Origin: Nereocystis luetkeana
Lineage: Eukaryota > Sar > Phaeophyceae > Laminariales > Laminariaceae
Assembly: GCA_031213475.1 (NCBI GenBank)
Contig: JARUPZ010000003.1
Location: forward strand, 10,381,963-10,445,962
Reading direction: 5' to 3'
DNA: 64,000 nt
A program made the translations under genes and the position numbers. The notes under the pieces are model-generated. The model was not told the origin of the DNA and did not search any database. It was given only the letters and a program-made list of their open reading frames with translations. Of this stretch, positions 1,167 through 61,999 are shown in pieces. Position 1 is the stretch's first letter. Each line of letters starts with the position of its first letter.

Positions 1167-4100
1167 CTGGGGGGGGGGGGGAAACGAAAACGAAAACGAA
1201 ACGAAAATGAAAACGAAAAAACGAAAAACGAAAAAACGAAGAGTGAAAAAAGAAAAACGATCGTTGACAAAACTAGAAAATATATGTATATGTTTAATAT
1301 ATACCTGGTATAATACATGTAAAATGGAAAACGGAAAATAAAAAACGAAAAAACGAAAGACGAAGAAACGGAACATCAAAACAACAAGGAATTTGGGGCA
1401 AAAGAAAAACAAACACGATAGAACGAAAAAAACGAAAACAGCACAAAGAACTGGAACACATTTCGTGATAGAACTACTGCTGTAACTACCCGACATGAAA
1501 AAAAGTACTGCTGCTATACGTACAGCATGGCTATGACATTATCCCCCACACATTTGACGTATTCNNNNNNNNNNNNNNNNNNNNNNNNNNNNNNNNNNNN
1601 NNNNNNNNNNNNNNNNNNNNNNNNNNNNNNNNNNNNNNNNNNNNNNNNNNNNNNNNNNNNNNNNTAACAATAGCGAAATATGTAGGCACTCTTTAAACCC
1701 CTTTAGCACCGCACTCCCATCTGTGGGGACAAAACACTCTAATTATAAGTAGTTTGTTCCCAAAACGGGACTGGGGTCCTAAAGAGGGTTAATATGCCCC
1801 CCCCGTAGTATTACGGGGGACCGTAGTTAATAGGACCTATGGTATACATAAAAAACCTACCAGGTATATATTTAACCATTTTTACGAACAATACTTGGTC
1901 CTATCAACTATGGTCCCCCGTAATAGTACGACAAACCGCACGTCAGGAGTCCCATTTTGGGGTACAAAGCCAGTAAAGTTCTAAATCATTTGTCACCCTC
2001 CGCCCCCCCCCCCCCCCCCCCCCCCCCGAAAACAAAATGGGACTGAAAAGGTGAAGGCGGGCGTCCGGACGTTTTTGCCCATTTTCATTTCGTGCGCCGA
2101 CAAAAAAAACACACACACAAACACAGAGAGACACGATTCGCTCGTGATAAGTAAGTACCAGGTACTGGGAAAAACGAACTGAAGCTCTAACCTTCGTGAC
2201 CGTCGACTTGCCGCCACCGGACGGTCCGACGAGAGCCAGGGTCTCCCCGGGGAGCGACGCTGATGGACACAGCATCCAGGACCTTGTCGTCAGGCCTCGT
2301 CGGGTAGGAAAACCCGACCTGCCCATTTAATTCAAGTAAACAGTGCATTTCGCGCGAAGCAAAGGGGGGGAGGGGAGAAGGGGGTCACGAACACCGACCT
2401 ACTCATTCAATGATACGTATATATTACTATTAAGGCTTGAAACTAATATTACTAGTGCATTTCTAAAGCAAGCAAATTATGAGGAGAAGGAGGAGGGTCT
2501 GGCCGCACGGCAAAGCAGGGCCACGGGGAGAAAATACTTGAGAGACTCCCTTGAGGGGGGTCCAATCCAAAATAACACCGGTCCGTGTATTCTGATATTG
2601 TAGCCTCTGTTTTTGTGACCACGGCCTAGATTTCAGGGAGCTCAAGCTATTCTTCGTGTGAGAACATCATCACCACCATCATCATCATCATCATCATCAT
2701 TATCACCACCATCATCATAATCATCATCATCACCATTATGATGATGCAAATCAAACGAGGCCGCATTAAAATATATATAATATATATATATATATAATAT
2801 ATATAAACAAAACTATAAACTCGTTTGCTCTGGACGGTCGCTGTCACGGCGTTTCGGTAGTCTTTCGCACGATTGTCAACCCTGATTCGCGAGAGCTTTA
2901 AACTTTTCGCGAGTAGACGGATTTTTTATATTTTGTATACATACTGGTATGTAGGTATTTCTGGTAAATACTATACCTGCAAACGAGGCCACAATACAAA
3001 ACACACACACCTGGTAAATATTACGCCTACTCTTGTAGTACCAGGTACCGGTATATATATACCGATATACCGATAGATACACATGCCGGCTTCATTTTGA
3101 TATGTGGTCGCGCACGAACTCCCCCCCCCTCCCTCTATGGTCATACGACTACCGCCATGCATGAGATCGAGTACATCTCTCCTATCGAGTACACCCCCCC
3201 CCCCCCGGCGCCCGCGGGTCGTCCTTTTCGTTGCGGGCGATACAATCCTTTCAGCGCTGCAGTCCCGTTTCGGAGACAAACCACTCCCAATCTGAGTCGT
3301 TTGAGTCTTTTTTCTGACCATAATGGTAGTGCAGCCCTAACAAAGGGCTAGGGTTAGTTAACATCACCCCCCCTCCCCCCCCCCCCAAAAAATAAATAAT
3401 AATAATAAATCTTCAGTACAGCAGGCAGTAGTTTTCACCCATGGTGGCTTTATTCATTCACGCCGGCGATCACTGCCATCGTTCTGTGGGCTATTCTGTG
3501 GTGCCCCACCATTTTTGGAGGAACTTTTGTCAGAAATTCTCTTTTTCCAAGGGGCTACTATTACGGGGGACCATAGTTAATAGGACCTATGGTACACATA
3601 AAAACCTATATATTTAACAATTTTTACTCACAATATTTGGTCCTATTAACTATGGTCCCCCGTAATACAGGGGACCATAGTAAATAGGACCAAATAATGT
3701 TGGAAAAAAAAGGGAAAACTACAGTTTTTTGTGTGTACCGTAGGTCCTATTATTTACTGTGGTGTCCCCCGTAACAGCGTGTTATCACTCTGTCCCGAAA
3801 TATAAACACCGTTTGATTCAACAATGGATGTTCAACCGGTCGGTGCTTATATCATGGGACAGAGTGGTGTATCACATGGCACCCCTGGTAGCCTGGTAGC
3901 TCCTACAGCAGCATGGCCGTGCCGAGCCATTTTACCCCTCTCAAAGCATACCAGGTATATATACTTGTCTGGAAAGAAAAAAAAAAAAAAAAACTTGTAG
4001 GGAAAACTGAACTGCACCCTCCGTTTTGGGAAACTAACTACTTGGAATTTGACTGGTTTGCCCCCCAAAACGGAACTGCAGCACTAAAGGGGTTGCACAG

Positions 4101-7100
4101 ATAGCTCTTAAACCGCTCTTAAACTGCGACCCCTGCTGCTACTTCCATACATACATGCAAATTAAGAGACCGGCTGTTTAACCCCTTTAGGACCCCAGTC
4201 CCGTTTTGGGGACAAACTACTTGAAATTTGAATGGTTTGTCCCCAAAACGGGACTGCGGTTCTAAAAGGGTTAAGGCGCGTCAACACCGCTTTGGGGGAG
4301 GGGGGGGGGGGGGGGGGGGGGGGAGGGGTTACCTATTTACTCCCTCAGTGCACTGTCTTCTTTCTAACTGGCAAGTGTCGGTTAGTGTGAGAGGGGTCGG
4401 GGCATTCGATGCTTCCATTAAGTCCAAGAAATTACATAACTGCCTTGGTCAGTCGCATCAATCTCCGAAACGTGCCTGTAAACTTTCGGGCAGCTCTGCC
4501 CCGAAACAGAAACGCAAGCCCTGCCGCATTTGTTGCTCGCGCTAACACCCTTAAGGCGCCTACATTTCCGGACAGAGGGGTGATTTTTTCGTCATTCCTG
4601 TACCCCAAAAACCCTCACCATATATGTATGTATACATAATAATATATATACTCCGGTATAACATATATACCAGGTTCGTATAAAATACATATACTTAGTA
4701 CATCACTCTGGAACTTACTGTCAAGAACATCGGGGGTAACAACATCAATAAATACCGGTTCCGACGTTTGACGTCCGGGTGGGCAACACATGAAAAAAAA
4801 AACGCACACACACATGAGCATGCACATCATGCCTACAACGCACTCAGCAGTACTTTTACTGCAATAGTTCTCGGGGGTATTCTTTCACTCCAATGATATT
4901 TCTCGAGGTGTCCTTCCACTCCCACAGAGCGTTATTGGAGCCTGTCCCGCCCTGCCACCAAAACTATATTTTTTCTTTCTTTTGTTTTTATACGAGAACA
5001 GAACCAGCGCACCTCCCGTAGCTCGAGGCTCCCCTCCACCTGCCCGGGCGCCGCGCCCTCGAGGCTCGAGGCGTCGATGGGCGGCGTCCTCTCCAGCGTG
5101 TCGAACACCCGGTAGCCCGCCTGCTTCGCCGCGCCGAGGGCGGTGAGGCCCGGAGCCATCTGCCCCAACGACATCGCTCCGATCAGGACTCCGAAGATGG
5201 TCGTGATCACTTGACCCTGAAGACGCGACCGCGACGGCCACCGAAGTCATCGCCATAACATAGTGGTGGTGGTGGTGGTGGTGGTGGTAAGCAGTGTGTA
5301 GAGCAGCACAAACAGTAGAGAGAGGTAGAAAGAGTAGTAGTACCAGCAGCAGTCGTTTGCAGGATTGGTGGTGGTGGTGTGTAGCAGCGGTAGTAGCAGC
5401 AGCAACACCAGAAACGGGAGCGGCGGAAGCAAAAAGCAGCAGCAGAGGCACAAGCAGAAGCAGCAGAAGCAAAAGCAGCAAGAGCAAAAAAAAAAAAGGG
5501 TTACCACAACGGAGATACAACGAGGGTTACGGGAGCGGTTACACCGCAACGACACTTACAACAAACGCTTATGATGACGACCGTTAGAACGACGACAGTT
5601 ACAGCCACTACGGTTGCCACAGCAACACAACACAATACAAGCAACTACCACTACACGACGACATTTAATATGCCCGACACCTCCACTGCCGACAGCTGCA
5701 ACGATGACGGTTACGACAACAGCTACAACGATAACGGTTACGACAACAGCTACAACGATAACGGTTACGACAACAGCTACAACGATAACGGTTACGGCAA
5801 CGTCTACAGCAACAGTTACAACAACGAACACAACGAGCGGTCCAACGATACCCGTTACAACCACTGTTAAAAACAGCGAACGACGGTTACAGCGGCGACG
5901 GTTACAACGGCCGCTACAACAACGACCACTCACTGCAACGACACACCACCGCGACAACCAACACTACCATACAACGACAACTAGAACGACGATTTTCGAG
6001 CCAAGGAACGAAACACGCAACAGCACAAACAACACAAACAACACACACAACACACAAAAACTACACGAAACCGAAAGAAAAAAAAAACGACGAACAGACA
6101 CATGGACGGTGGCGACGGAACCAACGCCCTCACCTTCCCTCCGCTAAACACCAAAGCAACAGACAAACGACGAACCACCGCTGAAAAACGAGAGCGGGGC
6201 TAAAAATTCCGTTTTTTTTCTTTGTTTGTTTGTTTCTCGCAATCGGACGGCGGCTCTCGCTTACCCCCGAGGCGCAGTCGCTCTCGCACCCGGCCTCGAG
6301 ATCATCCGCCACCAGCTTCGTCCCGTACCAGAAGGCCAGGGCGTACCCAAGGAAAAAGCTGGCGAAGAGAGTGGCTGTGCCTACACCCTTGTTAACACCT
6401 GAGGAGGGGGGGGGGGGGAGTACTCATTATCATGGATGGCCGAAGTCGTATGACCAGGGGGGGTTAAGACTTGAGGAGGGGGGGGGGGGGGGGGGGCTCA
6501 TTATCATGGATGGCCAAAGTCGTATGACCAGGGGGGGTTAACACCTGAGGAGGGGGGAGGGGGGGGGCTCAATATCATGGATGGCCAAAGTCGTATGACC
6601 AGGGGGGGTTAACACCTGAGGAGGGGGGACGGGTGTACTCGATAGGAGAGATGTACTCGACCTCATGCATGGCCGTAGTCGTATGACCATAGACCCTCGC
6701 ATCCCTACAATGCCGGGACGGAGCATGTCGGGTTTTCACCGACCAGGCAGACATTGCTTGCACCAAGCGCGAAGCGCCGTGAGGTGGAGGGCGAGTCGCA
6801 CGAAGGGTGAGCTGCATCCTACGAAGAACCGCTATTGAGGCGGACTTGCATATGGATGACAGCTTCAATGAGTTAATTTAATTTCCGGTGTAGGCATTCC
6901 CAGAGACGGCAGTGGGAGTACTATGTAACTGCCTCTTGGGTGTCTTACCTTGAACACTACGTGATACGATCAATTCCCTTGTGCGGAGTAAAGGTTATTT
7001 TCCTCGCACAGATGATCTAACTCGACAACCAGCTGTGGGCGACCGCCAAAAAGAAGAAGCAAAATAAAAAAACGGTACCCTGGTTGTCTAGCTCACGGGA

Positions 7101-10100
7101 GCGGCATGAGGGGGGGGGGGGGGGTACTCATTGTCATGGATAGCCGAAGACGTATGACCTGGGGGGGGCATGAACGGGGGGAGGGGTGGCGGGGAGGGTG
7201 TACTCGATATCATCATGCATGGCTGTAGTCGTGTGACCATAAATGACCACAGACCCGTTTCAGACGACACTGCTGTCGGTTGGAGGGGGACCCAGTTGCG
7301 CGCTCTCGGCCAATGCCGGGACGAAGCACGTCGGGTTTTCACCGACCAGGCGCAGACATTGCTTGCTTGCACCGAGCGCGAAGCGAAACGTGAGGTATTC
7401 GGCGAGTCGCATGAAGGGTGAGCTCCATCGTACTACAGTAAGAGCCGCTTGTGAGGCGGACTTGCACATGGACTACAGCTGCAATGAGCTAGTCTACTTT
7501 CCGGTGTGGCCACTGCCAGAGACAGCAATGGGTTTTTACTAGGTAACTGCCGCGTAGGTCCTTTACCATAAACACTACCAGTACATGATGCTTTTCTTTT
7601 TTCTTTTTTCTTATCCTCCGGCGGATTGGTAAAAATAAGCTCGATCCCTTTAGCACCGCAGTCCCGTTTTGGGAGCAAACGACTTGAAATTTGAGTAGTT
7701 TGTCCCCAAAAGCGGACTGCGGTTCTAAAAACGTTAAGCTCACCACACTTCCACGTTCTCGTGTCGTGTGGCAATTTAACCTATAGCTCCTGTGATATCT
7801 CTTGTGCGGAGTAAAGGTTCTCCACCCGGCACAAATGATCTGTAACTCGATCGCCAAGCCGTGACCGACGGCCGAAAAAAAAACAAACAAAAAAAGTACG
7901 CTGGTTGTCTGCTGTAGCGCACGTAATGAGCGGCTGGTGAGCTGCATGTTTTACAGTATCGTTGCCAAACGAAGTCAACCCAACCTATTCAAAATAAAGG
8001 GAGGGAGGGAGAGGGAGGGAGGGGGAGATTGGGTACGATCAAGCACGCCGAGGAGGAGGAGGAATAGGGGGAGGAGGAGGGTTGCAGATTGGCGCCCCCT
8101 ATGTAAATACCGGTTCGTGTTGGCTTCGGCGTCTATCCTTTTACCAATTAGAGTTGCTTGTTTAAAAAACGCGTCGACAAGCCAGTCAGCCCCCCCCCCT
8201 CCCCCCCCCCCCCCCCCATCCCTCCCCCACAACAGCCCCCTTACACGCCCCCCCCCCCTCCCCCCCTCCCCCCCCTCCCCCCCCCCTCGTACCCTCCTCG
8301 TTGGCTTCGGCGTCTATCCTTTTAGCAATCCGAGTTTCTTGTCTCACATTGCGGGCAAAAGCCCGCCAGCTCACCCCCTCCTCCCCCCCCCCCCCCAAAA
8401 AAAAAAAAGAAAAGAAGAGAAAAGAAAACAAAATCACTCACCAGCCTTGATGCCCGCGATTTCAGCGCCGTTCAGGTGTGACGAATACCTCTTGAACTCA
8501 ATCTCCTCCGCCGTGAGCGAGGCCACCGTTCGCACCGACGCAATGACTTCGTTCGCCACCCCTCCCGCCTTGGAGTAGTGGTCCGCACCCTGCCCGGTAG
8601 CCTTGGAAACCACGGTCACCAGCACGAACGTCGACAGGGCTATGAATGGAAAGCCTGGGGAGGCGGGCGGGCGGTAGGGGGAGGGGGGTTAGTTGATGTA
8701 TTCACACATGGGCAACATCGCAACTGTCAAGACATGCTGACTTTCAGAAAGCGAGGGACAGGAGGGGGGGGGGGGGGGGGGGGGGGGGTGTACTCGATAG
8801 GAGAGATGTACTCGATAGCATGCATGGACCCTCGCATTCCTACAATGCCGGGACGGAGCACGTCGGGTTTTCACCGACCAGGCAGGCATTGCTTGCACCA
8901 AGCATGAAGCACCGTGAGGTGGAGGGCGAGTCGCATGAAGGGTGAGCTGCATCCTACCAAGAACCGCTTGTGAGCGAACTTGCATATGGATGACAGCTTC
9001 AACAAGTTGATTTAATTTCCGGTGTAGACAGGTCCAGAGACAGCAATGGAGGGGGGGGGGGGGGAGGGGGGTGTACTCGATAGGAAGATATGTGCTCGAT
9101 CTCATGCATGGCCATCGTCGTATGACCGAGGAGAGGGGGGGGGTACTCAACATCATGCATGGCCGTAGTCGTATGACCAGGGGCCGAAAAGTACTGTTTA
9201 TAGGTGATCAACACTTGAAGCTCACTCATGCTGTGCACGTTGTTGAGGATTGGCAAACGCAAAAAAACACGAATTACGAAAAAAAAAATAACAAAAAAAA
9301 ACAAGAGACTGACTCACAGGCGAGCATGACGGCCGCCAGCTTGGGCAGCACGGTGAAGGCGATGATGAACGTCGCCAGAAAGACGGTGAAGTTCATCACG
9401 GTGTCCGCAACCTGACCAGCAAGCGGGACAGGGCATTGAGGAGGGGTACGAGTACGAGCACGAGTACGAGTGCAGTGTTGGTCCCTCTATGGTGCCGATT
9501 GAATAGCGCCTGTTCAATCGCTTGGCACACACACAGGTAGGGTTGCCTAGTGTGGAAGTTTGCTGAGTAGTTGCCGGCTGCGGCGATGGAAAGTGCTGGT
9601 ATCGTACCGGCACCATACAGGGACGAGTATTACAGGGGACCACAGTAAATAAAACCAAATATTGTGAGTAAAAATAGGTAAATATATACCAGGTACCTGG
9701 TAGGTTTTTGTGTACACCATAGGTCCTATTAACTATGGTCCCTCGTAATAATGTATGCACGTCGGGTGTGAAATATTTCAACCTGTCTTACCACGCACAA
9801 AAAGGGGGAGGGGTATGTATGTACGAGTACGAGTATACATATCGGGTGTGAATTCGATGTTTTTGAAAAAAAAAAACGAATTTTCGTAAAAAAAAGTTGA
9901 ATACGCACACTCTTGCAAAAAAATGAAAAAAAGCGAAGCATTCAATACGTACGTAACGTAACGTTCTTGAGCCAAGCTACCACCACTGCCAATACTACTG
10001 TCACTTCCATCACCACTACTGCTGGAAAATTTTAGACTATTATTTCGAAGGACCCTATTACGGGGGACCATAGTTAATAGGACCTATGGTATACATAAAA

Positions 10101-13100
10101 ACCTATATATTAACCATTTTTACAAAAAAAAAATGGTCCTATTAACTATGGTCCCCCGTAATAGTAAACATGACCAAATTTTGTTAGTAAAAACAGGCAA
10201 ATACGTAGGTTTATTGTGAGTAGGCCCTACCAGGTATTTACTATGGTCCCCTGTAATACTACTATTAACCAATACCGCTACTACACAGCGATGAAAAAAA
10301 TACATACAAAATTATCACTAGATGTACAAAACGCGCAAGACGATTATGCGGTCCGGTACGAGACTTTGATCAGTTCAGTCTGATCGTGAATAGAAGGTAC
10401 TACATAATGTGAAGAATTGAGGTGTCCACCTCATGTGTTCGATCAGAGTGGCTGGTACTTCCAAGCGCACCACTACAAATAACGTATTCACACAGTGCCT
10501 GGTGCCAGCAAAACAAAACAGGCAAACAATAATACTCATGTATTCTGCCATATTGTGTGAGTGTTGCGTTGGAAAAAAAGCCTCCGGCCGTTGCTGCGGA
10601 TATTTCATCCCGGAGGATCACCCTCCTGCGAGCATCGTACTCCTCCTCCTCCCACCTCGTACGTAGTAGATTTTCCGAGGCTTTACTTCAAGTTGGACAA
10701 CAGGGGCTGATGGTGGGTGGCTTTCTACACCTATGCTCTGTTTTTTTTTTCCAACATTTTGTTCGACCACTCTCGCAAGCCACGTTGAGTTCCACTTAGA
10801 CTGCTGAATATATTGATGTGCATGACACAACCATAAAGCGGTATCCTACAAACACAATTACCAGGTTCGTAAAAAAGCAAACACCAGGTACATATATATG
10901 TGTATCAAATTCAAAACCACAGCAGCAGTAAACCTAGTATAGGCTTCTCGTTCGGCAGAGGGCGGTGCGGTGCTGGTGCAACTCTGCTGGGCCCGGCGCG
11001 AGCTGTGCACGCCCGAGCCAAAGGCACTCACGAGTGAGCATCTCTCACTTGCACTCTTGCTTCTGGTCGAGATTTCACAACGTGTATCCGTCGGTAGACC
11101 CCACGACTATCAAAAAGGGCGTTAACCCGTCCGTCGGCATCAAAACTTGCATCTCATCTTGTCCTATGGACTCCGAAACGTTTTGCATGTACATATATAT
11201 CAATTACTTATCATCATATATACTCACCAGGTAGTATATATATAATATAATACCCGGATATATATATATATATATATATATCTCGTGGTACCACAAAAAA
11301 ACAAAAACCCTGGTGCTCGTACGTACCAGGCACGAAACATATGCCTCGTACAAAAACCAGCATCTATTGAGTGTGCTCAAGAAACACGACGGAGATGTTC
11401 CATCTAATGTAGGGGAAGTGGACTAAAAATATTACGTAACAAACGCTACTCGAATTTAGGGCTTCTAAACTCGCTTTTCCACCACATTCTCCCTCGCTAA
11501 ACCTGACTTATCTCTCCTTGCGAGTAAGTCAGGAACCCCGATGAGACTCCGAGTATCCAAGTTTTACCTCCGACTTTTCGGTACCGGACTCAGTATGCAA
11601 TTATCGCATTGCTCTCATCGTTCTTTCCTGGGTGTTTTCTAAGTGAGTGAGTTTTACAGGTTCTTGAATATGAGATATTCCCCTTTTATCCTTTCTTCGG
11701 GGGATGAAGGCGAGGATCGAACCACGGACCTCGCTCTTCAAAATCACGTCTTGCCGACGACGCCATTGTAGGGAAAGTAGACTAAAAATGTTACGTAACA
11801 AACGCTACTCGAATTTAGGGCTTCTAAACTCGCTTTTTTACCACACTAACATTAGGGAGTTCCATATATTGATGTGGGATTATAAGAACGGGATATGTAG
11901 GCGGATAATCCGCGAGACAAACGGGAGAGAAGCGTGGTGGATAATCACGTGCATGCTTCGCCGTCCGCTGAACGAGAGATGGTAGGCGGATAATCAGCGG
12001 GGCGAACGGGAGGTTTATTGTGCCGGCAATGTGGTGGATAATCACGTGCATGCTTCGCCATCGGCTGTCACTCGACAGCTCGGATATATAATACACAAGG
12101 GGAGTTCCGTGTTAATTGTCTGGAGTCAACCACGCGTTCCCGTGCCAGCCGCGTCTACACCTTTAGAGATCAATCAACACACTAGTGAAAACCAGTGATC
12201 TTCTACTGGCAAGCGTAGCCTAGGCCAACCACCTAGAGAGGTGGGAACCTTCCGGCACGTCTGGTTCAGATGGCATGTCTAGTCAGGAAGTAAGCGCGGC
12301 AATTGAGAAGATGCTGAAGATGCAGGAGAAGATCGAGGTCCTGGAAAGGAAGCTAGAGGAGCAGAAGCTGGGCGCCGAGAAGGACGAGGCCGCGAGAGGG
12401 AACGGAGGAGGGGGGCGGTGGGGGGGGGCGAGAGGAGAAGCAGCTGCGAGGGAACAAGCAGCGTCGACGGTGCCGAAACCCGGGCTGGGAGCCCATTCAG
12501 ACACGTGACCAAACACTTCTTAATACCGCCCCAGTTTATCCCAGTCGAGACCCCCCGAAGTTCGATAACATAGAAGCCCACTTTAGTATGTGGCGCAGTA
12601 AGTTCGAAGCGTACCTTGTCATCCCTAGGGTACCTTCATGTATCAAGCACGTCAAACCCTGTTATGGTTGGTGACGTGAGGGTGTCGGAGGAGGGGCTTA
12701 GCATCCAGGCACTCTCCTCAAGAGATTAGGCATGCGCTACTAGTCTGTGGATTGATGATGGAAGCGATGACTGGATACGCGATGGCGGAGTTTAGAACGC
12801 AGAAGGCACTGCCGCCAAGTGGTGCTTGGAAAGAACTAGAAGACCTACTACATGCCTAGGACGATAGCTGCCACATATAAGCTACAGAGAGAGTTAGAGA
12901 CCATCAGAATGGTCGAGGGTGAGAACCCCATCGCCCCCCCCCCCCTCCGTTCCTTCTCGCGGCGCGTCCTTCTCGGCGCCCAGCTTCTGCTCCTCTGTCA
13001 TCCTTTTCCAGGACCTCGATCTTATCCTGCATCTTCAGCGTCTTCTCCGCACCTCCACCACCGGCAGGCTGCGCACCCCCGGCGTACAAAGCATGCTGAT

Positions 13101-19100: not shown

Positions 19101-22100
19101 GTGTATGACCAAGGGCCTTGCGTGAATGCTTTCGAAAGAGGGATCTCTCTGTTTGCGTGATGTATCAACATGTCACAACGGAGCTTGTACAACCGCACAA
19201 AAATATCTCCAGCGGGAAACGGCAAGCACAGGACCTATAGACCGTCCGCTGCCGTAGACCCCCCTCGGACGCATGCAGAGTTCGTCATATACGCAAGAGC
19301 AGTAGTACCGGTTACCACTATAATGCCGGTACCGTACGGGCCAGGCAACAATACCGGCAATATTATAGCGGCAACCGGCATTAACTAATCTGCACACTAT
19401 ATACATCACACCGGTGAATCCCATCTGTGTGCCAAGCGATTACCAAGCGATTACACAAAAAAAGCCAAAATCGTCAATATAAATATATACTTCGAGTATA
19501 TATATTTGCATATAGATATAAATATAACATAGTTTAACATGCATATATCATCAAAACAGTAACTAAGCAAAAATACCACAAATGTAAAAAAAAAAATCCA
19601 CACAAAAAAGTAGAGAGCCAAAACCGTCTCCACCCACCTGCTTGAGGATGGCCCTGACATACATCTGCTTGATGCGGAGAGATATCTCCTCTCCTGCGTT
19701 ATTCCAAAAGACCACCTGAACAAAAACAGTAGGGAGGCCGGGGGCGGGTTCGCGGAGCGGGGGGGGGGGGGGGGCGTGTAATCATTTGACGCTTGCCTCA
19801 GCCATTTGGCCATTGACCACGCATCCCTTTCCAGACGGAGGGGCGGCGGCGGGGGGGGGGGGAAGGCAAACAGCACGAGATTTTGGGGAAAACAACGAAA
19901 ACTTCAATCCTGAAAAAATCAGGAACTGCTAGAAAAGAGTTTGCGAAACAACCCAGCAGATCGTAGCGGTTTTCAACACGTGATTTTGGGAGTGTGATCT
20001 TTCGGGAAACAAAACGAGCGACTTGGGGGAATATGATGACTACGCCTCCTCGAAGTTGTTATCAAATAACTTCTACCAGGTACTAAATAAAGCATCATCC
20101 CCACGGAACCCAGCAAATGTCGTGGCGTCTCCTTGTGTTTCCAGTGCTATGGCGCCGAAAGAACTAGCCTACCCTGCCCTGCCCAACCCTACCCTACTTA
20201 TACAGGATTTCTGTCCGAGAAGAAGAAAAAAAGGCGAAACAAAAACGGCACTGGAATGCCATACGTACTTTAACCCTTTTACAACCGCAGTCCCGTTGTG
20301 GGGACATACCACTCAAATTTTAAGTAGTCTGTCTATCGTATACGTTATGTAGTGTGTTATTACTGCCTGCACCCAGGTGCAGGGAGGGGTGCCGCGCGGT
20401 GCGGCAAGCACAACGTACTGCTGTGCCATCTCCTCGCTTCCCCATTACCCCCTTCCCTCTTCCCACATGACCATCCTCCTCCTCCTCCTTCCTCCTCTTC
20501 CTTCCCCCTCCCGTGTTATCCCCGCCCCTCCCACCCCCACCACCAGACCCTCCGCCCCCTCCCACCACTACAGCCCCCCCGCCCTCCCCGGTGAAAACCC
20601 GACATGCTCCGTCCCGGCATTGTAGGGATGCGAGGGTCTATGGCCATACGACTGCGGCCATGCATGAGATCGAGTACATATCTCCTATCCAGTACACCCC
20701 CCCTCCCCCCCTCTCTCTCCCCCTTAAATTGTCTGCCAGGACCGTGAAAACCCGACGCGTCCCGTCCCAACATTGCGTATATAAAGATATACATGAAGGG
20801 ATGTGGGGGTTTATGGTAATACGGCTACGGCCATGCATGGCAACGAGCACACCCCCCCTCCCCCTCCCCCTCCCCCTTCCTCCCCCCAACTCCCCCCTCC
20901 CCCGCCATTAAACCCCCTCTCTCTCACCTGCAACCCCCCCCCCCCCCCCCTTGATGGTCACGAGGTGTGGTGTGAAAGGAGTTTAGTCTACCAGCGCTCT
21001 GGCAGTAAATATTATGAGCGCTAGGTCTTCATATTGATGAGTACCGTTGCGGGGGGGGGCATTGTAAATAGGACCTATGGTACACACAAAAACCTATACA
21101 TTTATCTATTTTTACGAACAATATTTGGTCCCAATTACTGTGGCCCCCCCGTAAATAGTGATAAGTGAGCGTTCATCAATTTCGTCCCAAGCAGGTTGGT
21201 ACCTGATACGCAGCACTTTATGGCCGAACCATTTATGGCAGACGGAGCACCTTCACGGAGGGGCACTAAACACCCAATACGATTAGCCTTGGGGATCCCA
21301 CTATTTTATCCTGTTTTACGATGCTACTCGCTGCATAAACCTAGCTTGCAGGAGACGTAGGCCTCAGGGAAAATTTATTGGTTTTTCACTTGCATGTTTC
21401 GTGAGCTTTTGGGTGAGAGGTAGAGAGCTCCTACGCGAAAATCAAGCGAGAAAGCAGCCTCAGAACATATACGTAAGAGGTACGCCTCCCCCCCCCCCCC
21501 ACCCCTGCCCCTCCATCGTCGCTATGATCGCATCCCGCCTTCCTCTCACCATCAAAAGCCCGGAGACGAAGGCCACGGCCCCCGTGCCTGCGAAGACCCC
21601 CGACAGACTCGACACCGCGTCCAGAATATCTTCGCCGTTAAGCTCGTCCATCACATCGCCAAACACCAGGATAAAGTTGGGCACCGTCAACCTGATAAAG
21701 GTATTGATATATATCAGTATATATACCAGGTATATCATATTTTATATATATATATATATTTTTCGTTTTTTTTCGTTTGTCATTGCGTTCGTATAGTTGT
21801 TGTAGAAGTGAGTTTTGGTGTGTTTATATGTTCATGTTTTTTTTTGCGTGTTTTCGTTAATTTTTTTGTTTTTTTTGTGTTTTTTTGCAAAAGAGTTGTT
21901 ATTTGGTTTGTATATTTCGACAAAAAAAAGGTCAAGACAAGAGCGCGCGGGAGGCGTCGGACGGGATAAGGGGGGTAGGGGCGGGGGGCGGGAGGTGAGT
22001 AAAGGGTTGCGGGAAGAGATGGTGGGTGGGGTGTCGGCGGTGGGTTTGGAAGGAGGGAATGGGGCGTGCGGGGGGGGTGCGGGGGGGGGGGTGAGAGGGA

Positions 22101-35019: not shown

Positions 35020-35039
35020 TAGTGTGATACGGTACCAGG

Positions 35040-35265
35040 TATATGCCCCTTGCTCCGTCTCGAGTGGGATGCGTGTGGCCAATGGTCAAATGACTAAGGC
35101 AAAGCGACGAATCAGTACGCCCCCACCCCCTGGTCGGTGAAAACCCGACATGCTCCGTCCCGGCATTGCAGGGATGCGAGGGTCTACCGTATGGTCATAC
35201 GACTAACGGCCATGCATGAGGTCGGGTACATCTCTCCTATCCAGTACACCTCGGCTCCCCCCCCC
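35040..35265 (+). mobile_element. Two family C copies in tandem (variant then standard)
   Basis: Variant GGCCAATGGTCAAATGAC ... ATCAGTACGCCCCCACCCCC, then TGGTCGGTGAAAACCCGAC ... CCAGTACACC. The second begins in the C tail of the first. Confidence 0.8.
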
Positions 35266-35694
35266 TCCCTCCCCCTCAACAGAAAACAGTCTGCGTATAT
35301 CCCTAGTCTACATTCTTGCTGGGTTGCTTCTCGCCCCTGGGCTATCTGTGAAAGGGGGGGGGGGGGGGGGCATGGTAACGGGAACAGAAAACGGTGCCCA
35401 AAACACAGGGGGGGGGTACATGCCTTCCGGGTTCATCCTGGGCTCTGAACACTATTATACTATGCTCCCCCCCCCCCTCCCCCCCCCCTCCCGCGATAGT
35501 CTGTACCAGCTATACACTGGGTTGCAAGTGATGCGGGATGGTATACCACAGCTCGTTAGTACCGTTCCCCTTACGGACTGGTATGGCACAGCAGACAGCA
35601 GTGTTGGCGTGGGCGCTATTTCGTACCAGGTACGTGTTTTGTTTTCTCCCATCGAGGTGCATTTTGTTCTTGTTGTTATTCGCAGCCTGTTTTG

Positions 35695-37908: not shown

Positions 37909-37919
37909 TACCTGGTACT

Positions 37920-40781: not shown

Positions 40782-42390
40782 TTTAGAACAGCAGCAAAAG
40801 GTAGCAGTACCGGTATCACACACCTACGCGGCTTGACGCCGCACACTATCACAGATGCTGCATATACAGACTGAAGAAGCCGCACAGTACGAACCCACCC
40901 CCTCCCGGCCCTTTAGCGAGGAACTCTCCTTACGGCGTCGGGGAGGGACGACGCGGTGGGTGTTGAGCCATCGATCGTTAGTAGGAGGGTGTTGTGCACG
41001 AACGACGAGCTCTCGCTGGGCAGCTCGACATGTAAACTCCTATACATGCAGACAACTGCTGTTTGTCGCCGCAACAAGGCCGAGTTTTGTTGAGCCGACA
41101 AGATTCTCTCGACTCGCCGAGCACGCTCTGCGTTCGGAGTGCAGGTCGAGCCGCTCGCTTGGCGTCGGAAGAGCAGCGCGCGAAAAGGCGGCACGTGCTG
41201 ATGGGCGATCTTGAGGTGGCTCGACGCTAACTTCGCCTTGAACGAGCACCGCTGCTACTATCTAGATACCATATACCAGGTATACACCTTGGTACCTGGT
41301 CCAGGGTACAGACGGGCGTGGTTTACATGTGGTCTCTGGTCTGTGGTGGTCTCCGTATCATACGAAAACCATGAATAGCATTTTTTTTTGGCATACGCTG
41401 TACGCGTGCATAAGGAACTACATTGCCTACGTACACACGACTTCAGAACTGTAGTCACGAACAGGAGACGCGAAAAAAAAAATGCAAAAAGGGCCTCATT
41501 TTACAACCGGAAAAAAAGCGTTGCATAAGAAACCGCCTTACGGACCCCCCTCAACCGCGCTGCTGCTGCTGCTCTGGGAAACCTCCGAGCCATTTTTAAC
41601 CGATGCGAAGGAAGAAAGAGGTGATCACATGCCCGGACTCGAACCCGCACATGCCGAGGCTCGAACCCACGCATACCATGCTCAGGAGCGGACGGTCCGC
41701 CCAATAAGCCAGCAGGGCCCGGGCCCGGGTGGACGGTGAAGTCAGCGTGGCATCAGGGTGATGACAAAGCAGGAACGGGGTATTTGGATCAGTGTCTAAA
41801 TTCTGCAAACAGGGTATCCCGTTACAGACACCACCGTAAAAGACCGCGCACAGTCCGCACGAGAACGCCCCCCCCCTCCCTCCCCCCCCGGCCCACACGT
41901 CCGGCGGGCAAGCCCTAGCTGATTCCCCGCTCCTCCCACGCACCGCCCGCCCCCCATCTGCCACCTCAGCGACCACGTTGTCGAGTCCGGAGACTGATCA
42001 ACATACACCCTGATTCCGTATTGGGCACTCTGATTCCACGCCGACATTTGCCTCACCCGGACCTGAGACCCTCCGAACTGACCCCCCGGGGGCGATTAAT
42101 TAGCCGCTGTCGGGGGCCACTTGGCACCCCTCACCCCCCCCCCCCCCGCCCACGGCTTCAAGCAGCGTACCAGATCGTAGCAAACACGCTGGTACCCCGA
42201 TATCACTTTTTCCGCTAATATAGCAGTGATACAGCAGACGTATGCATCACTCTACACGACAGCAGTGAAGTACCGTGAGGGTATACGTAGACATTAAAAC
42301 AACACACGGTCCTGACGCTTCCGGCCAGGGAGGTGGACTGTTGCACGAAGGGGGGGGGGGGGGGGGTATGTAGTATCAACAATCAGAACC
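40782..42390. other. No recognised gene
   Basis: GC-rich mixed sequence around 41.0-41.2 and 41.5-42.2 kb with C runs; only the tRNA-like motif on the minus strand stands out. Confidence 0.45.
41620..41725 (-). repeat. Possible tRNA-related sequence
   Basis: Minus strand: TGGCTTATTGGGC (A-box-like), GTGGGTTCGAGCC and GCGGGTTCGAGTCC (two B-box-like motifs 22 bp apart). The stems do not pair cleanly. Confidence 0.35.
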
Positions 42391-42717: not shown

Positions 42718-43187
42718 CTTGAATATATATCACGTGTATGGTATATCGGCGAAGACCAGAAACGATTAGCGCGAGCGGTCTTGTCAAGCGACTACTAACA
42801 CAAATAATGCACGATAGGAAGAAGGAGCAGCAAGCAGTGTAGTCGAAAACTGAAAAGAAAATCGCACACAACAACCAACAAAAGCAAGAGCAACAACAAC
42901 AATAACACAACATCATCAGAGTTACGATATGAGATCGGAGACTTTCCTCGAGACTCACAAAAAACTTGCAAGCTCTTGTGTTCATAGTTATGTACCAGGT
43001 ACTGTACAAGAACACAACAGGATTGCCATGCTCTGCCTGCGCGCGTGTGGTCCATCTTACACAGCTCCATACTTCGCTCTGTTGGGCACGCCCACAAATA
43101 TGCCCGCACCCTCAGGCAGAGCTAGAACTGCCTCGTGCCGCCGATGCCGTACAAAACAGCCACATATACCAAGAATATCAAGAGTGC

Positions 43188-47045: not shown

Positions 47046-49640
47046 CGGAGAGAATAAAGGAGATAAGCAAAAAGAAGAAAAGAAAAGCAGCAGCAGCAGC
47101 ACAGCAAGCAGCAGCCAGCAAGCGCTAGCCGCGACTAGGGGCAGCTTGAGCAACAACAACAAAAAACAGCGTCAGCACAAACACCAGCACCAGCACCAAC
47201 CAGCTTCCCTTTTTGGATTGCCTGCTGCTGCTGCTGCTGCTGCTGCGCTCAGCCTACGCACGCCCCAGCGCCGCCGGGCTCCGCTCCGCTCCGCCGCCGC
47301 CGCCGCTGCTGCTGCTGCTGTTGCAGCTGCAGTGTGGTGGAATCGAAATGATACACGAGCTGTCGCGCTCTGTGCGAGCACGACGAGTACGAGCACGAGT
47401 ACGAGTGTAATTGCGAGTCCCTTTTTGGGACGAAGCAACCGCCACGTCGTCACCAAGTGGGCGAAAGCGTGTACCGTACGTAGCAGCGGCGGCGGCCCGC
47501 TGGCACAAATCCAACGCCGCTCCCGTCGTGCGCGCTATACTCAAGCTACACCTCTCGAGCCTCTGTGCTCTCAGCAGTTATCGTGATGCGTACAGCAAGC
47601 GGCATGGTGGCATGGAAGATGCGCGATGTTTGGATTGCTCGAGATTTAAGATGATGCGTTCTGCGTCGGGATAATGCTCGGTGCGTGTAGGCCAACTTTT
47701 GATGAAATCCTGACTTCGCTGTAAGTACTTTTCCGCGTTTTTTTTCAGAAATTTACCTCAAAAAGTTACCTCGGGAGAAATTTTAGAAGAAGCAAGAGTA
47801 AAAAAAAAAAAATCGCAAACACTCCAAAAATAACTCAACTAAATTGGATTCTCGCAAAAGACACCTAACCCTAACCCTAACCCTATAGATCGTGCGTATG
47901 ACTTGTTAATCTTGTTTGTACGACTGCGGTCGCTCCTTCGTATTCCAAGAGTACTTGCTGTCATCGTCGGCCCCGTGCCATCTGTTGTCGCGCGCACAAG
48001 CATTGACTGACGACACCTACCTCGACATTCTACTAATGGAGTGCGGCGCAAGGTCGGTGCCCTTCGTCTCACTTCCGCTTTTCGTCCGTCCCGATTGGCG
48101 TCAAGCCTGGAGCCGTCAAGACGACCTGGCGTCTTCTCGACGCTACATGCTAGAGACAAAGAGAAGGAAGAGTGCTGTATACAGACTCAGGCCGAACCTG
48201 AGTCCGTGCTCCTCTTTGCAGCTGAATGCTCGCAGCATGTGAGAGTGCTGACGGGTACTAATGGCAGTATATCACCGGCGCATCACTCTAGAATGTCGTC
48301 AACACGCCTAGAAATCCTCCTAAATACTGCTGCTTCCACACACATCTACTGCTGTAGTGATGCGCATACCAGGTACATACATACGTGGACCCCACTCCAC
48401 CCCACCCCACCCCACGCCACCCCACCCCCCTCCAGCGCGCTGACTCAAAAAAAATTATGATCAGTATCCTCCCAACGTACTGCTAGTACCGGCAGTACAC
48501 CCGCGGTATCGAACCCCGAAAAGCTCGGAGTTCAGGGGGTATACTAGCCGAAGTACGCACATGACTAAAATCATACCTGGTACTGCGAGTACTCGAAGTA
48601 TGGTATGGGGGCAAAAAAATAGAGCGAGTACCCGCAGCGAGGTATGGGCAGTATCGCACAACGACATACTGCCAGCACTCAGAGTATGGTTTATACATCG
48701 GACCCTGTGAAAATACTGTCAGTTCACGCGGTACCTCCTCAGCATTGCCCGCCGAAAACAAACTACTGAGCATCTGCGCAGCACACGGGTATCGTGTATA
48801 CAGGAGTCTCGAGACATCAGAACGACGCCACTTTACACTTTACACTTTGTACACTTTTACACCAGTGTGTTCCATGAATTGTATGTTTCGTGCTGTCTTC
48901 TTTTTCAAACTCGAGCGCCAAGGCTGTACTGCACCCTGGCAGCACCTGTAAAAACATTACCGTACGTGTTGTAGAGAACTTCGAGGGCCAAGAAAGAAGG
49001 CTGGGCGGACAGGGTCGAGGGCGACTCAAAAAGAAGCACGAAAATCGAAGCGAGGACTCGCAGTGCATATCGAACGATCACATACTCCTGCCAGTACTCG
49101 CATGAGCATTATCGAACCTGATATATCATATATGTACATATTATATACTTCTATATACTTACCTGGTAGTATATATGTGTGTGCAACTAAGTATATATGT
49201 GTGTGCAGCACAGGAGTGCCTTAAGGAGGGTCCTCCAAACAAGGTGGAAATTTCGAAGCCGGAATGAGATCAGCTGTTCGTAACCCCGTGCTGTGACGCT
49301 ATACACGTATGATACGAGTCCTACAGCAGTAGTATTAATAGTACGAGTGCATCAAACAAACAAATATCGGCCGAAAAGCGGCTATGAAGCACCGGTTCTC
49401 GACAGTAATATTGGTACCTCCGTGTCAAGACACGAGGCTGCTGAAGGACTCGCTGCGTACTCTCTTCCACTCCAACACGCTCCCGTGGCCGTCTTCTATG
49501 TAAACTCGCACACAGCAACAGATCTCGGTTGGGGGGGGCGGGCAATTGAACATTCTCGATGAAAAATAGTGAAAAAAAGAAAACCAAAGTCTAAATAACA
49601 TATACCAGGTGACAAGCTAGAACCCGGTTGTATCCGCAAC
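47046..49640. other. No recognised gene
   Basis: AGC/CAGCAC and GCTGCT tracts at 47080-47330, the CCCTAA tract at 47867 and a (CCCCA)n tract at 48390-48430. Several open frames follow trinucleotide repeats. Confidence 0.45.
47867..47887 (+). repeat. Perfect short CCCTAA tract
   Basis: Three perfect CCCTAA units plus part of a fourth, isolated in unique-looking sequence; a likely repair-type telomeric insertion. Confidence 0.85.
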
Positions 49641-50612: not shown

Positions 50613-51127
50613 ACACACACGCCAGCTGTGATGAGATCGAGGATTTCGTCGAAAAAAACTCTCGTCTCTGCAAGCTGCGTGCAACACCACTACAGTACGC
50701 ACGTACGGGTTGCGCATGAACTCGTGAAGGACGTGTAGGTCAGAGGCTCCCCTGGGCATCACATAATACCAGTTGCTGTGCATGAGAGGCGAGAGGGTAG
50801 AAAGTGTGACTGTGACATGTCCGCAGCAGCAGCAGCAGCAGCGGCAGCAGCGGCGGCAGCGGCGGCAACAGCAGACTACCACCTATTCGAAAAAATGGTT
50901 CGCTGGCTGTGGTGGTTGCCCCTCGATGCTGTGATGTGGCCGACCCTGGACGGACCCTGCCGGAGGTGACCGTGCCGGGGGGAGGGGGGGGGTAATTGTA
51001 TACCAGGTATATACCCAGGGTCAGCTTAGATGGCTCAAGTCCGGGTGGGATCAGTCAGGTCTGGGTGGGATCAGCCATTCAAGCGGGAGCGGGAGCAGGG
51101 TGGAAAGGCAAACACTTAGGGCCCATA

Positions 51128-53057: not shown

Positions 53058-53711
53058 GAGACTCGTATACTCGTAGCACGGCTGGCTATGAACGGCCCGA
53101 AGGTTGTGATCCCCGTTGTTTCTCGCCCGGACTGATTCGATTCTGCTTGGGCGTCTCGTGTAAAATACTCTCGGAAACGAAAGCATTCCGATTTCGATTT
53201 CGACTTTCGATCATGTTCGGACACGCACGCCTCAATTGGTAAGGTGGCAGCGACCAGCAAGCGCATCCTTCGCAAATATTAGCTGGCAAAATACGAACAC
53301 AACAAAAAAGTAAGGCAATCCAAAGCGGAGCAAAACAAAGAAGAGCAAAGCGAAGCGAGGCACAGCAGAGCAAAGGCACAGGTAGAGCGAAGCAAAGCAG
53401 GACACAGCTCAGCAAAGCAATGCTCAGCTGAAGCTCAGCAAAGCTCATCATAGCTCAGCAAAGCTCATCAAAGCTCAGCTCATTACACCAAAGCAAAAGA
53501 AAAAGAGGAAGAAAAAAGAAACAGCAAACGCAGAAGCAACAGCAACCAGAAGCGAAAAGAACAACAAGCACTGCAAGATGAAGCAAAGAGAAAAAGAAAC
53601 ACAGTCAAGCGGAGAGCGCGAGGAGCCGGCACCCGACCACACTCTACTCGTATACGATACCAGGTACCTGGTATATGTAGATATATTTTCAATAAAATAA
53701 AACGACTCAGA

Positions 53712-53790: not shown

Positions 53791-54084
53791 AAGGGGGGTC
53801 TACATGTCGTTTGTATTGAATACTACTATTAATATCAATAATACTATAATGTATAAACGGTCATTAATACTACATAGTATAGTGGTGGTATACATCTATC
53901 ATACATGTACCAGGTATACGATAATGGGTACCAAGATGAGTGAGTACCTGTGGTATCCTTTTCTGTTTTCTGTTTTCCTCCCGAGACAAGTTTCCACTCC
54001 AGAGTTATTGGAGCCTGAAACAAAGGCTGTCCTGTGAAACGCGGACTACTATCGACACATAATACAGTAGATTGTTGGCGATGA

Positions 54085-54300: not shown

Positions 54301-54754
54301 GTGACAAAAAACAACCACAGCAACAACCTTCGTACGACGTACGAAAATTCGAAACCACTCTGGTCGGAGATGTAAGCACCCTCATGTACTGATATTTGAT
54401 ACAACAACCGTCCTTACATTTCTGTCCATCAACAGGAATGGTTTTCTCTCAATGTTTCGTTCTTTTAATCTTGCACGCGATACGTATGCAATGCAACAAA
54501 ATACCATCAACAGCACCAACACAACTACAACATCAGCAAACAATAGCTGCAGCGCAGACCGCATTCTGTGCAGCAGCCTACCGCGCGCAGGCAGCAGCAG
54601 CAGCAGCAGTAACTCACAACTGCTGCTGCTGCTGCTGCTTGCGGCTGTGATTTTTCTGTTTTATGTACTGCTGCTGCTGCTGCTGCTGTTGTTGTGACAA
54701 TCAGCTATTAATAGCTCCCTTCGTCTCCGGCAATCCGTGAACAACAACAGCAGT

Positions 54755-56281: not shown

Positions 56282-56844
56282 TGATACGATACCGACGAAA
56301 CAAAAGAAAACAAAAGCATCGTAATCGGTACGATTTCGATATATTTGATGCTATCGTAATCTGTACGAATTCGATATGTCTGATAGCTTTCGTCACAGGG
56401 GAAACATCTGCATGAAAAGCACGAGGATGTCAGGCGATGGAGGGCAAAAACACATTCGATATTTCGAGGGATCGAAAGTTTCGACACCGCAGGTAGGCAT
56501 GAGGATTTATTTCCTTTCTTGATGTTTTGCTTTCTACCTGGTATTTTGCTCCCGTGCCTGACTTGATCTTTTTTTCTCTCTCTTCCCTTTTGGATGTGTG
56601 ATTTCTTCGATTTTTTATTTCGATTTTTCGGCGTCGAGTTGTTATTTTCATCCTGTCTAATTTTTTCTGGGTAGCATGTGGTCTTCTCGGTTTCTGTGGC
56701 GACTTGTACAGCGTACCGCATGTATCTGATAGGTCATGCGCGGACCTCCCTTTTTATGTTTTGTCTGACTGCTGAGGTGCAGATGTGCTTCAATTATCAT
56801 GTGTACTAACTACTCTTTGCTTGTTTTTTTTTTTTACCGAGGTA

Positions 56845-57391: not shown

Positions 57392-58072
57392 GGTCTATAT
57401 ACGAGAAGAGAGGGCCTTCGGAAAAATAGAGTGCTCGACTTTTGAAGTTATATAGCACCCTAAAGTCGACAGAGCACTGAAAAACGAGAGAGCGCGGGAA
57501 ATCGACCGCAATCCTCCCCGTGCGTGCGATTCAACGCTCTTTGCGGCATACCCACTCCCTTTTGCTATCACCCCCCCCTGGCTCTTGCAGATCGAGTGGT
57601 GCATATATATGCAAAAACAATAACGTTGTACGTACCGGTGTGTCTCACACGTTCGTACAACATCGATATCACCCCCCATGGTATTTTTCCTACGAGATAC
57701 CACTGTGTCCCTGAATATAGGGAACTTTTTGATCGGAAAAGAGTATACAAGCTGACCTTATACCTAGAGACAGCGGTACCTCGTACTATTGACCTGCCTG
57801 GAAGTGCTCAAACGCGACCATACAATAATACAACACCTGGTACCTGGTACACTGGTGTCACCCCGACACCACGCCCCCCTCCACGAGAAATTACCACCTT
57901 CGGTTATAAACAAATGAAACCTCGAATAAAGCAGTGCCCTTTGTCACCGGGTTCATTAAATCCCCCCACCCCGCGGGAAACCACCCTGGGCGTTGAAAAG
58001 TCAAACCCCCAAAATACAAGCGCTGCTGTGAATCGGCACAACTCAAGTCGTCGACTACTATTAATACGGGGG

Positions 58073-60070: not shown

Positions 60071-61080
60071 GCTCACCACACTTCCATGTTCAAGATCCGA
60101 ACCCGTCGGCCGCTCCCTGTCCTCCAAGGGTGAAGAATGAGCATGGACACTGGGCGTGCTGGATGTGCGTTGGGTAGAGAGAAACACACACACCCCAGCG
60201 CGGCTCAAAAATCCGCTCTCTTAAGTACTTACGCATCACGCAGCTTGAAAAGGTGATCTTTCGATGAAGCCTTCGATCGCATCACAAAGTAGCTGAGACT
60301 GGCTGAGAGTTTTTTTTTTCTTCCTTTTTTTTCAGGTTTTCCAAACGCTTTTTTTGTCGCACTACTTGTTCGTACCCATTACGAGTCACACATTATTACC
60401 TGCAACTAAACTGCAATGCCGTCAGATCGAAAACAAAAAAAGGACTGCTGGTTTGGACAAAACCTTTCCGCTGGCCAACTCCAGATTTTTCCTTTTATGA
60501 TACATAACTACGTAGACGTAACCCGTTACCATCAACTAACTAAACTACACTTCCGCCAAATACTACCAGGAGACACTATGTATACCTGGTATTCCAGCAC
60601 CAGGTATGTATGACCGCTGATTTTCGACAAAACCCCTTGATGGGTCAACTGCTGATCATTCGCGTTTCAGGACGTTTTATCGGTCAACACACCCTGCTCC
60701 CATTCGGTACCCTGATAATCCCACGCCGACCTGATCGCACCCGGACCTGAGCCCTCCAAACCGAACCTGGGTAGTACAGCTAGCCGCCGGCAGGTCCCAC
60801 CAACCCACCAAGCCACGCCGACAGCAAATCGAGGGTCGGCGACAGGCAGCAAACAATTTCGTCGAATATAGAGAGTGGCAAGCTCCCCTCGATACGTGAG
60901 AGGAGGGGACTCGCTATACGTACTGGTAAAATACGAAAATTACGTACCAGGGTAGTTACTAGAGGCGTGACTGGCAGCGTGGCGCATGTATGATATGTAA
61001 ACCTACTCGTATCCAACCTGAACGTCGTTCTGAGGCATGCCATCCCCCAACGAAAACAAACGAAATCCTGCGACCTGTGA
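60071..61080. other. No recognised gene
   Basis: T-rich tract at 60309-60335, TACCTGGTA/CACCAGGTA at 60582-60606, otherwise unremarkable. Confidence 0.45.
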
Positions 61081-61494: not shown

Positions 61495-61595
61495 GCCAGA
61501 TTAAATAGGACCTATGGTATGGACAAAAAGCTACGATATATGTTTACCCATTTGTCCTAACAATATTTGGTCCTATTTACTATGGTCCCCCGTAA
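61495..61595. mobile_element. Family A MITE
   Basis: GATAGCGGGGGGCCAGATTAAATAG ... GGTCCCCCGTAA; left end slightly decayed. Confidence 0.88.
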
Positions 61596-61999
61596 TAGCT
61601 ACGGTACCAGGTACGATGGTATTACTGATGTAGATCGCCACCACCGTATCATAGGTATGCTACTGTAACGTACGACGTTAGTTGCACCGGGGTGTCAAAT
61701 ATCCTCCAATTATCCGACCGTTAGGGTTTCCTTGTCTATGGAAGGCCTACCTGCTGCGTACAGGGTGCTCATCTATTTCCCCGTGAGACCAATCGCTCGC
61801 TCAGAGAGGGAGGGAGAGCAGAGAGGCTCGAAAGGGTCTACCGCGACTTATGGCGCATTATCACCCGTCGCCTTACACCGCGCCGGTGTGCCAATGGCAG
61901 CAGTGCCGCGGGCCGTTGGCGCTCTTTTTACACCACAGGTACTTGACAGGTACCCAAAAAGGTACCAGTACCTGGTACCTGGTACTATTTATTGTACAC

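Follow-up and report, generated by a model that had tools for sequence, protein, structure and literature searches.

We analysed a 64,000-nucleotide stretch of the genome of the brown alga Nereocystis luetkeana (C3:10381963-10445962; hereafter the window) for the word TACCAGGTA, a candidate scar of transposon excision. Taken on either strand this word reads TACCWGGTA, where W is A or T and CCWGG is CCAGG or CCTGG; its counts cover both strands, and nested units are counted one by one. The window contains 42 copies, some of which lie within family A, a miniature inverted-repeat transposable element (MITE) of about 110 bp. All copies of the word listed below are exact matches; those in family A were also placed by alignment, as were the MITE copies themselves, which are given with their flanks.

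1302..1310, minus strand, TACCAGGTA candidate scar
1858..1866, plus strand, TACCAGGTA candidate scar in family A MITE, site 1
2156..2164, plus strand, TACCAGGTA candidate scar
3039..3047, plus strand, TACCAGGTA candidate scar
3949..3957, plus strand, TACCAGGTA candidate scar
9687..9695, plus strand, TACCAGGTA candidate scar, first of nested pair, family A MITE site 1
9694..9702, minus strand, TACCAGGTA candidate scar, second of nested pair, family A MITE site 1
10228..10236, plus strand, TACCAGGTA candidate scar in family A MITE terminal repeat
20074..20082, plus strand, TACCAGGTA candidate scar
21724..21732, plus strand, TACCAGGTA candidate scar, TA-rich run
22311..22319, minus strand, TACCAGGTA candidate scar
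22996..23004, plus strand, TACCAGGTA candidate scar
23026..23034, plus strand, TACCAGGTA candidate scar
24376..24384, plus strand, TACCAGGTA candidate scar, family A MITE site 1, variant unit TACCAGGGG directly before
27589..27597, plus strand, TACCAGGTA candidate scar
27732..27740, plus strand, TACCAGGTA candidate scar
27776..27784, plus strand, TACCAGGTA candidate scar
30128..30136, minus strand, TACCAGGTA candidate scar, TA-rich run
30149..30157, minus strand, TACCAGGTA candidate scar
33643..33651, minus strand, TACCAGGTA candidate scar
33882..33890, minus strand, TACCAGGTA candidate scar
34030..34038, minus strand, TACCAGGTA candidate scar in (TA)n run
35033..35041, plus strand, TACCAGGTA candidate scar
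35624..35632, plus strand, TACCAGGTA candidate scar
37909..37917, minus strand, TACCAGGTA candidate scar
40063..40071, plus strand, TACCAGGTA candidate scar
40305..40313, minus strand, TACCAGGTA candidate scar
41274..41282, plus strand, TACCAGGTA candidate scar
42993..43001, plus strand, TACCAGGTA candidate scar
48367..48375, plus strand, TACCAGGTA candidate scar
48574..48582, minus strand, TACCAGGTA candidate scar
49160..49168, minus strand, TACCAGGTA candidate scar
51001..51009, plus strand, TACCAGGTA candidate scar
53658..53666, plus strand, TACCAGGTA candidate scar, first of nested pair
53665..53673, minus strand, TACCAGGTA candidate scar, second of nested pair
53908..53916, plus strand, TACCAGGTA candidate scar
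56535..56543, minus strand, TACCAGGTA candidate scar
57841..57849, minus strand, TACCAGGTA candidate scar, joined to variant unit with outer CA
60583..60591, minus strand, TACCAGGTA candidate scar
61605..61613, plus strand, TACCAGGTA candidate scar
61969..61977, minus strand, TACCAGGTA candidate scar, first of nested pair
61976..61984, minus strand, TACCAGGTA candidate scar, second of nested pair
1796..1939, plus strand, family A MITE copy with gained candidate scar, one of 26 in the window
9614..9763, minus strand, family A MITE copy with nested double candidate scar
10149..10272, plus strand, family A MITE copy with candidate scar in terminal repeat
24300..24444, minus strand, family A MITE copy with double candidate scar and two extra bases

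A word repeated across the genome

Compared with 100 dinucleotide shuffles, the window held 48 copies of ACCAGGTA where 2.34 were expected, in keeping with the hand count of about 45 (about 2 expected) in an earlier note on this DNA. For TACCAGGTA it held 42 copies where 0.42 were expected (0.59 by an order-3 Markov model). The word is sharp, with its single-base neighbours in the window summing to 36 against 12.7 by chance. Among window words of the form TA-N5-TA, CCAGG (42) was followed by GGACC, the family A word (17); among the 16 words of the form TA-xyWy'x'-TA, CCWGG (42) was followed by GGWCC (17, family A) and TAWTA (8), with the rest at 4 or fewer.

Outside the window, we took 20 stretches of 10 kb each, spaced 1 Mb apart along three contigs, a 200-kb sample that together with the window makes up 264 kb of the alga's own DNA and 105 TACCAGGTA sites. 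The sample held 63 copies against Markov expectations of 1.69 (order 3), 3.03 (order 4) and 9.17 (order 5), none of the 20 stretches lacked the word, and TACCAGGTA had the top z-score among 9-mers with at least 15 copies, excluding runs of 1-4-base units. Extrapolating from these 200 kb beforehand gave 146,501 copies for the assembly (465 Mb in 1,987 contigs; 95% interval 104,644-193,010). Counting the whole assembly, as the earlier note had proposed doing against a background, yielded 182,395 copies, or 0.39 per kb, versus 1,744 for the reversed control word, a roughly hundredfold excess. The pattern is real, genome-wide and surprising.

Most TACCAGGTA copies are not within a longer repeat, because the flanks of 87 of the 105 sites are unlike any other in the 264-kb sample; the remaining 18 have a similar flank elsewhere, and 11 of these are one family A group. 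Some copies do sit in TA runs, with TATA surrounding 17 of the 42 window sites, as might be expected if the word were a piece of a longer repeat, a by-product of microsatellites, or an artefact of assembly or basecalling. That explanation is largely refuted by the unrelated flanks, by a target preference that holds out of sample, and by four copies in separately assembled contigs of metagenome-assembled genomes (MAGs), two of them inside family A, and we regard it as extremely improbable.

Gains at TA, target preference and decay

We aligned 52 family A copies: 26 from the window, 19 from other stretches of the alga's own DNA, and 7 from contigs that are filed under bacterial MAGs and carry brown-algal sequence. 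The sister copies inspected at the gain sites comprised all 26 of the window and 13 of 43 others. TACCWGGTA was present in 9 of the 52 copies at places where the inspected sisters mostly show a plain TA, and the change from TA to TACCWGGTA is a 7-bp gain that doubles the TA, as a footprint of the Tc1/mariner/IS630 superfamily would. Five of the nine gains lie at site 1, AAACC[TA]TATATTT (two of these double), three lie at GGTCC[TA]TT in the terminal repeats (split two and one between the repeats), and one lies at a third TA. Within the window, three of four gains fall at one TA, AAACC[TA]TATATTTA, and the fourth falls in a terminal repeat. Carriers of site 1 differ internally in the manner of subfamilies, as judged by eye, and the three in the window do not group in a weakly supported tree of the window copies.

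The 26-copy alignment confirms the claim of the earlier note that four family A copies gained the motif where their sisters have plain TA, although the first coordinate it gave was off by 8, the motif lying at 1858-1866. Its statement that the insertion points differ holds in that more than one TA was used, but they differ less than it supposed, given the shared TA in the window, and some gains may be inherited. Across the 52 copies the gains occupy three kinds of place, as opposed to one fixed ancestral place. Four contigs in the MAG set (JALZUO010000060.1, JALZVY010000272.1, JALZWC010000131.1 and JALZWD010000061.1) carry brown-algal family A, a contamination of the GTDB genome set. Some of them have the MITE at one contig end only, and their remainder may be bacterial.

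To reconstruct the empty site, we removed the motif and rejoined the flanks. The outer base was A or G in 74 of 84 window half-sites (52.5 expected), and the same preferences appeared in the window (42 sites) and in the independent set (63 sites): a purine (R) at -1, A at both -3 and -6, and A/T at -7, all mirrored across the TA. A/T at -7 was the strongest in the independent set (108 of 126 versus 67 expected). A strict window subset of 33 sites, with nested and family A sites removed, was compared with 2000 GC-matched draws, of which none reached its R at -1 and 14, 24 and 8 reached its A/T-richness at -6, -7 and -8. The preference for R at -1, A at -6 and A/T at -7 is firm, and A at -3 recurs in the 63 new sites. 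When trained on the 42 window sites alone, a target score discriminated between the 63 new sites and 10,439 other TAs, the area under the curve (AUC) being 0.811 (p = 7e-18), and the 58 new sites without family A-like flanks gave p = 2.6e-16. This out-of-sample palindromic preference at TA is of the kind seen in Tc1-type elements and looked for in a Tc1/mariner/IS630 footprint; ZB, for example, prefers ATATATAT around the TA (PMC7913693). It would fit a transposase dimer, and also a dimeric DNA-binding protein.

Copies of the word also nest: 3 of the 41 gaps between neighbours in the window are exactly 7 bp, giving TACCWGGTACCWGGTA, and the triple unit has 1,689 matches in the assembly, overlapping ones included, versus 0 for the control. 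One-step variants numbered 60 by transition (18.9 expected) and 50 by transversion (34.3 expected), with one variant word of 8 copies sitting in both tallies. Such transition-biased variants are the decay of neutral copies, unlike the profile of a conserved site. A dimeric protein would be suited by the near-palindrome and its symmetric flank preference, so the word could conceivably be a selected binding site, a palindromic RTACCWGGTAY that arose or was kept at many places. Clean 7-bp gains in MITEs, nesting by shared TAs, transition-biased decay and the density across the assembly all argue otherwise, making selection for binding a very improbable origin.

Related words, parent search and neighbouring features

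The ends of family A are TTAC..GTAA, with insertion between TAs, and a cut two bases inside them would leave TA-TT-AA-TA. The word TATTAATA occurs 13 times in the window versus 2.55 expected (e.g. at 54706, 59551, 63071 and 63878) and 29 times versus 3.7 in the 200 kb, with the target preference TAC-TA-GTA. For the flank tests, strict filtering on the ends reduced the 52 family A copies to 9, with 43 dropped. The TATTAATA target score recognised these insertion flanks with an AUC of 0.916, and the reverse direction gave 0.859 (42 sites); the TACCWGGTA score gave 0.419 against the same flanks and 0.414 in reverse. MITE family A thus probably leaves the countable scar word TATTAATA in this genome, which makes it a useful internal control. 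TACCWGGTA is not the scar of family A, which is ruled out as its parent both by ends that are not CC(A/T)GG and by this target test.

Other words were also in excess. The pair TACAGCAGTA/TACTGCTGTA occurs 9 times in the window (1475, 25726, 26530, 27147, 38325, 44598, 48347, 49322 and 59665) and 19 times versus 1.0 in the 200 kb, has its own target preference, T.C-TA-G.A, and is perhaps a six-base scar left by another element. For TACWGCWGTA, the counts (28 words of one kind versus 2 mixed) do not support two mismatches being repaired independently. TACWGTA, the Sleeping Beauty-type footprint word, was counted 83 times versus 29 expected in the 200 kb; its targets (CTAC/CTAG) have C at -1. TACGTA has 52 window sites, about 2.8 times the order-3 expectation (104 strand-counted versus 37.4), and favours G as its outer base in the pooled 264 kb. 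A tandem word with a five-base unit, AAGGCAAGGC, reached 34-40 copies versus 0.34-0.42 per 10-mer phase in the 200-kb sample.

Searches for a parent element covered the 264 kb of own DNA and 27 kb of MAG contigs, only part of which is algal. The earlier note had suggested looking for elements whose termini begin TA-CCAGG, and no such element was found in this DNA. Among window pairs of the form TACCWGG..CCWGGTA, a 30-bp pair in a TA run matched at 15 of 20 inner bases; no other pair exceeded 12, and random positions gave up to 14. There were 24 pairs ending in TACC..GGTA, seven of them with CCWGG at both ends; each end of these seven is a whole scar word (CCWGGTA), and 12-15 of 20 inner bases match. 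When the sequences inward of 95 lone TACCWGG words were compared, at least 14 of 20 bases were shared by only two pairs (18 within one locus, and 14). In IMG/VR, the family A pattern, the family B pattern and the triple word returned 0 contigs, and TATACCAGGTATATA was found at 54 loci, of which 52 carry one TACCAGGTA and 2 carry two, which we read as chance. A pattern search of four bacterial MAGs hit mostly one of them, at a rate little above that of its control (30 versus 19), and this result was not used. Pfam identified the integrase and reverse transcriptase of a copia element among five window proteins, with no match for the other three.

With no parent element in the sampled DNA and gains uniformly of 7 bp, the word could be the product of a micro-insertion process that adds 7 bp at TA directly, no larger element ever having been present. 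We consider this decidedly unlikely, since the doubling of the TA, the palindromic preference and the self-pairing of CCWGG are all expected of cut-and-paste transposition and a second scar-like word in this genome fits a real MITE.

Several further features were recorded. Exons of an ABC transporter, joined by hand, run on the minus strand from 29.1 to 2.2 kb; the best match is from Ectocarpus fasciculatus (77% identity over 75% of the query), followed by Discosporangium (64% over 61%) and Heterococcus (46% over 89%), matches that point to a brown alga. A Ty1/copia-type element at ~12100-18110, with limits set by eye, has its integrase (PF00665) and reverse transcriptase (PF07727) in separate frames; it has zero copies of TACCWGGTA inside (~12.1-18.1 kb), as expected of a young insertion. 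A further MITE-like family, recognised by eye, is palindromic, with AGTCCCGTTTTGGGGACAAAC arms and TTAA at each end (e.g. 25078-25174 and 27608-27704); one exact arm pattern of this family had no match in IMG/VR. A run of 100 N at 1565-1664 is an assembly gap or a masked stretch.

Excision as the likely source

TACCWGGTA is probably the excision scar of a TA-targeting cut-and-paste DNA transposon that ends in CCAGG/CCTGG and is cut about 5 bases inside. Such a transposon would insert at a TA, double it, and later be cut out, the non-transferred strand being cleaved about five bases inside the element to leave 3' overhangs TACCAGG on both flanks. Facing each other, CCAGG and CCAGG would pair at 4 of 5 positions around a central A:A mismatch, the flanks would anneal and be ligated, and mismatch repair would yield CCAGG or CCTGG between two TAs, 7 bp more than the empty site. 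The overhang would be a five-base analogue of CAG, and one word would dominate because a self-pairing five-base overhang would heal almost always alike. Footprints that lack such an overhang vary in length, from 0-3 bp for ZB (PMC7913693) to 0-4 bp for Passer (PMC9976928). If breaks close by joining and not by template copying, we infer that jumping would be conservative, leaving many scars and few copies, a prediction that fits 182,395 scars alongside sampled DNA in which no element was observed.

Cleavage of Tc1/mariner elements is exact at the 3' ends and falls two to three bases within the element at the 5' ends (PMC2170065). Sleeping Beauty has a three-base 3' overhang that becomes its footprint (PMC7827188), namely TACAGTA or TACTGTA (PMC4378557). 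TACCWGGTA is like this TACWGTA in its TA on both sides and in a near-palindromic core whose central A/T a mismatch could explain. It differs in having five bases between the TAs as opposed to three and in that the parent of the Sleeping Beauty footprint is known; in addition, TACWGTA in this genome prefers C before the TA, whereas TACCWGGTA does not. For ISY100 (IS630/Tc1/mariner), the overhang is self-complementary and ligation of the cut backbone gave TATATA, the junction predicted (PMC2170065), although that overhang is two nucleotides long, the element is bacterial and its transposase is known. Terminal repeats of the Mos1 type begin CCAGGTGTACAAG (PMC3419177) and share with the proposed element an end beginning CCAGG and insertion at TA; however, mariner cuts two or three nucleotides inside (PMC2642840), which predicts no 5-bp scar, and no repeated end was seen behind TACCWGG in our sample. 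Within the same algal class, Ectocarpus has 17 Mariner-Tc1 families with 11,912 copies (PMC12477816), an abundant TA superfamily with mostly non-autonomous copies; the words "footprint" and "excision" are absent from the main text of that transposable element survey. Among the papers listed by our searches of the openly accessible literature, most subscription papers being outside them, we saw no report of TACCAGGTA as a scar. Judged by title, none of the papers returned on excision footprints or microinsertions concerned brown algae, and no paper was returned that combined brown algae, MITEs, Tc1 and transposons.

Several observations weigh against an excision scar. First, there are 5 bp between the TAs at the 105 sites in 264 kb, versus 2-4 bp stated for Tc1/mariner (PMC7913693) and 0-4 bp measured for Passer (PMC9976928). 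Second, the 264 kb of own DNA and 27 kb of partly algal MAG contigs yielded no TACCWGG-ended element. Third, only 8 of 94 transposon excisions in rice were perfect, the rest having deletions or filler (PMC4423477), and with excision there mostly messy, one dominant word needs a special overhang. Fourth, five of the nine family A gains share one TA and some may be a single inherited event, and the four in the window depart from the general rule of R at -1, with C preceding the TA. In the strict 33-site subset, A at -3 did not reach significance (160 of 2000 draws). The internal control, moreover, is not fully specific: the TACWGTA score also recognised family A flanks (AUC 0.811, p 0.0006), probably because both preferences favour C before the TA. 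Finally, the minor words TACCATGGTA (5 versus 0.4) and TACCGGTA (10 versus 3.6) in the 264 kb could equally come from shorter CCA/TGG ends; along with TACCAGGGTA (7 versus 0.57) they look like imprecise joins of the same ends, and a 3-base CCA/TGG overhang also fits.

That shorter overhang would retain the idea of a scar with the usual 3-nt stagger: CCA..TGG tips would overlap by a mispaired A:A and be filled in to CCAGG/CCTGG, with no 5-nt stagger involved. It draws support from TACCATGGTA and TACCGGTA, from the Mos1-type ends that begin CCAGGTGTACAAG (PMC3419177) and from the two- or three-nucleotide cut of mariner (PMC2642840). Such a system should mostly leave TACCATA/TATGGTA, which is hardly enriched (44 versus 35, word plus complement), and tip-to-tip joining is not expected to be so uniform as to give 105 sites of one form in 264 kb; we therefore think a 3-nt overhang unlikely.

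The earlier note had taken the word for an excision footprint of a TA-specific, Tc1/mariner-type transposon. Excision remains the best-supported reading, given the gain and doubling of the TA, the palindromic preference, the nesting, the transition-biased decay and the scar word of family A, but the assignment to a known type lacks support in two respects, with no parent found in the sampled DNA and a length outside the 2-4 bp of Tc1/mariner. TACCWGGTA would work like a Tc1/mariner scar, and we do not file it as a footprint of that superfamily. A fuller proposal, which we hold tentatively and with slightly less than even confidence, is that an undescribed TA-specific transposon with 5-nt self-pairing CCWGG overhangs, joined nearly every time, jumps without multiplying and is visible mainly as more than 180,000 scars.

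Studies of transposon footprints usually proceed locus by locus. In this genome, the scars seem to far outnumber any visible parent, and they can be counted, dated by their decay and read for target choice, which suggests that many small insertions and deletions in such a genome are transposon-made. A testable question is whether the sequence of a transposon's tip decides between joining, with many scars and few copies, and copying, with many copies. If the excision-scar reading is true, past transposon activity would be readable from scars alone.

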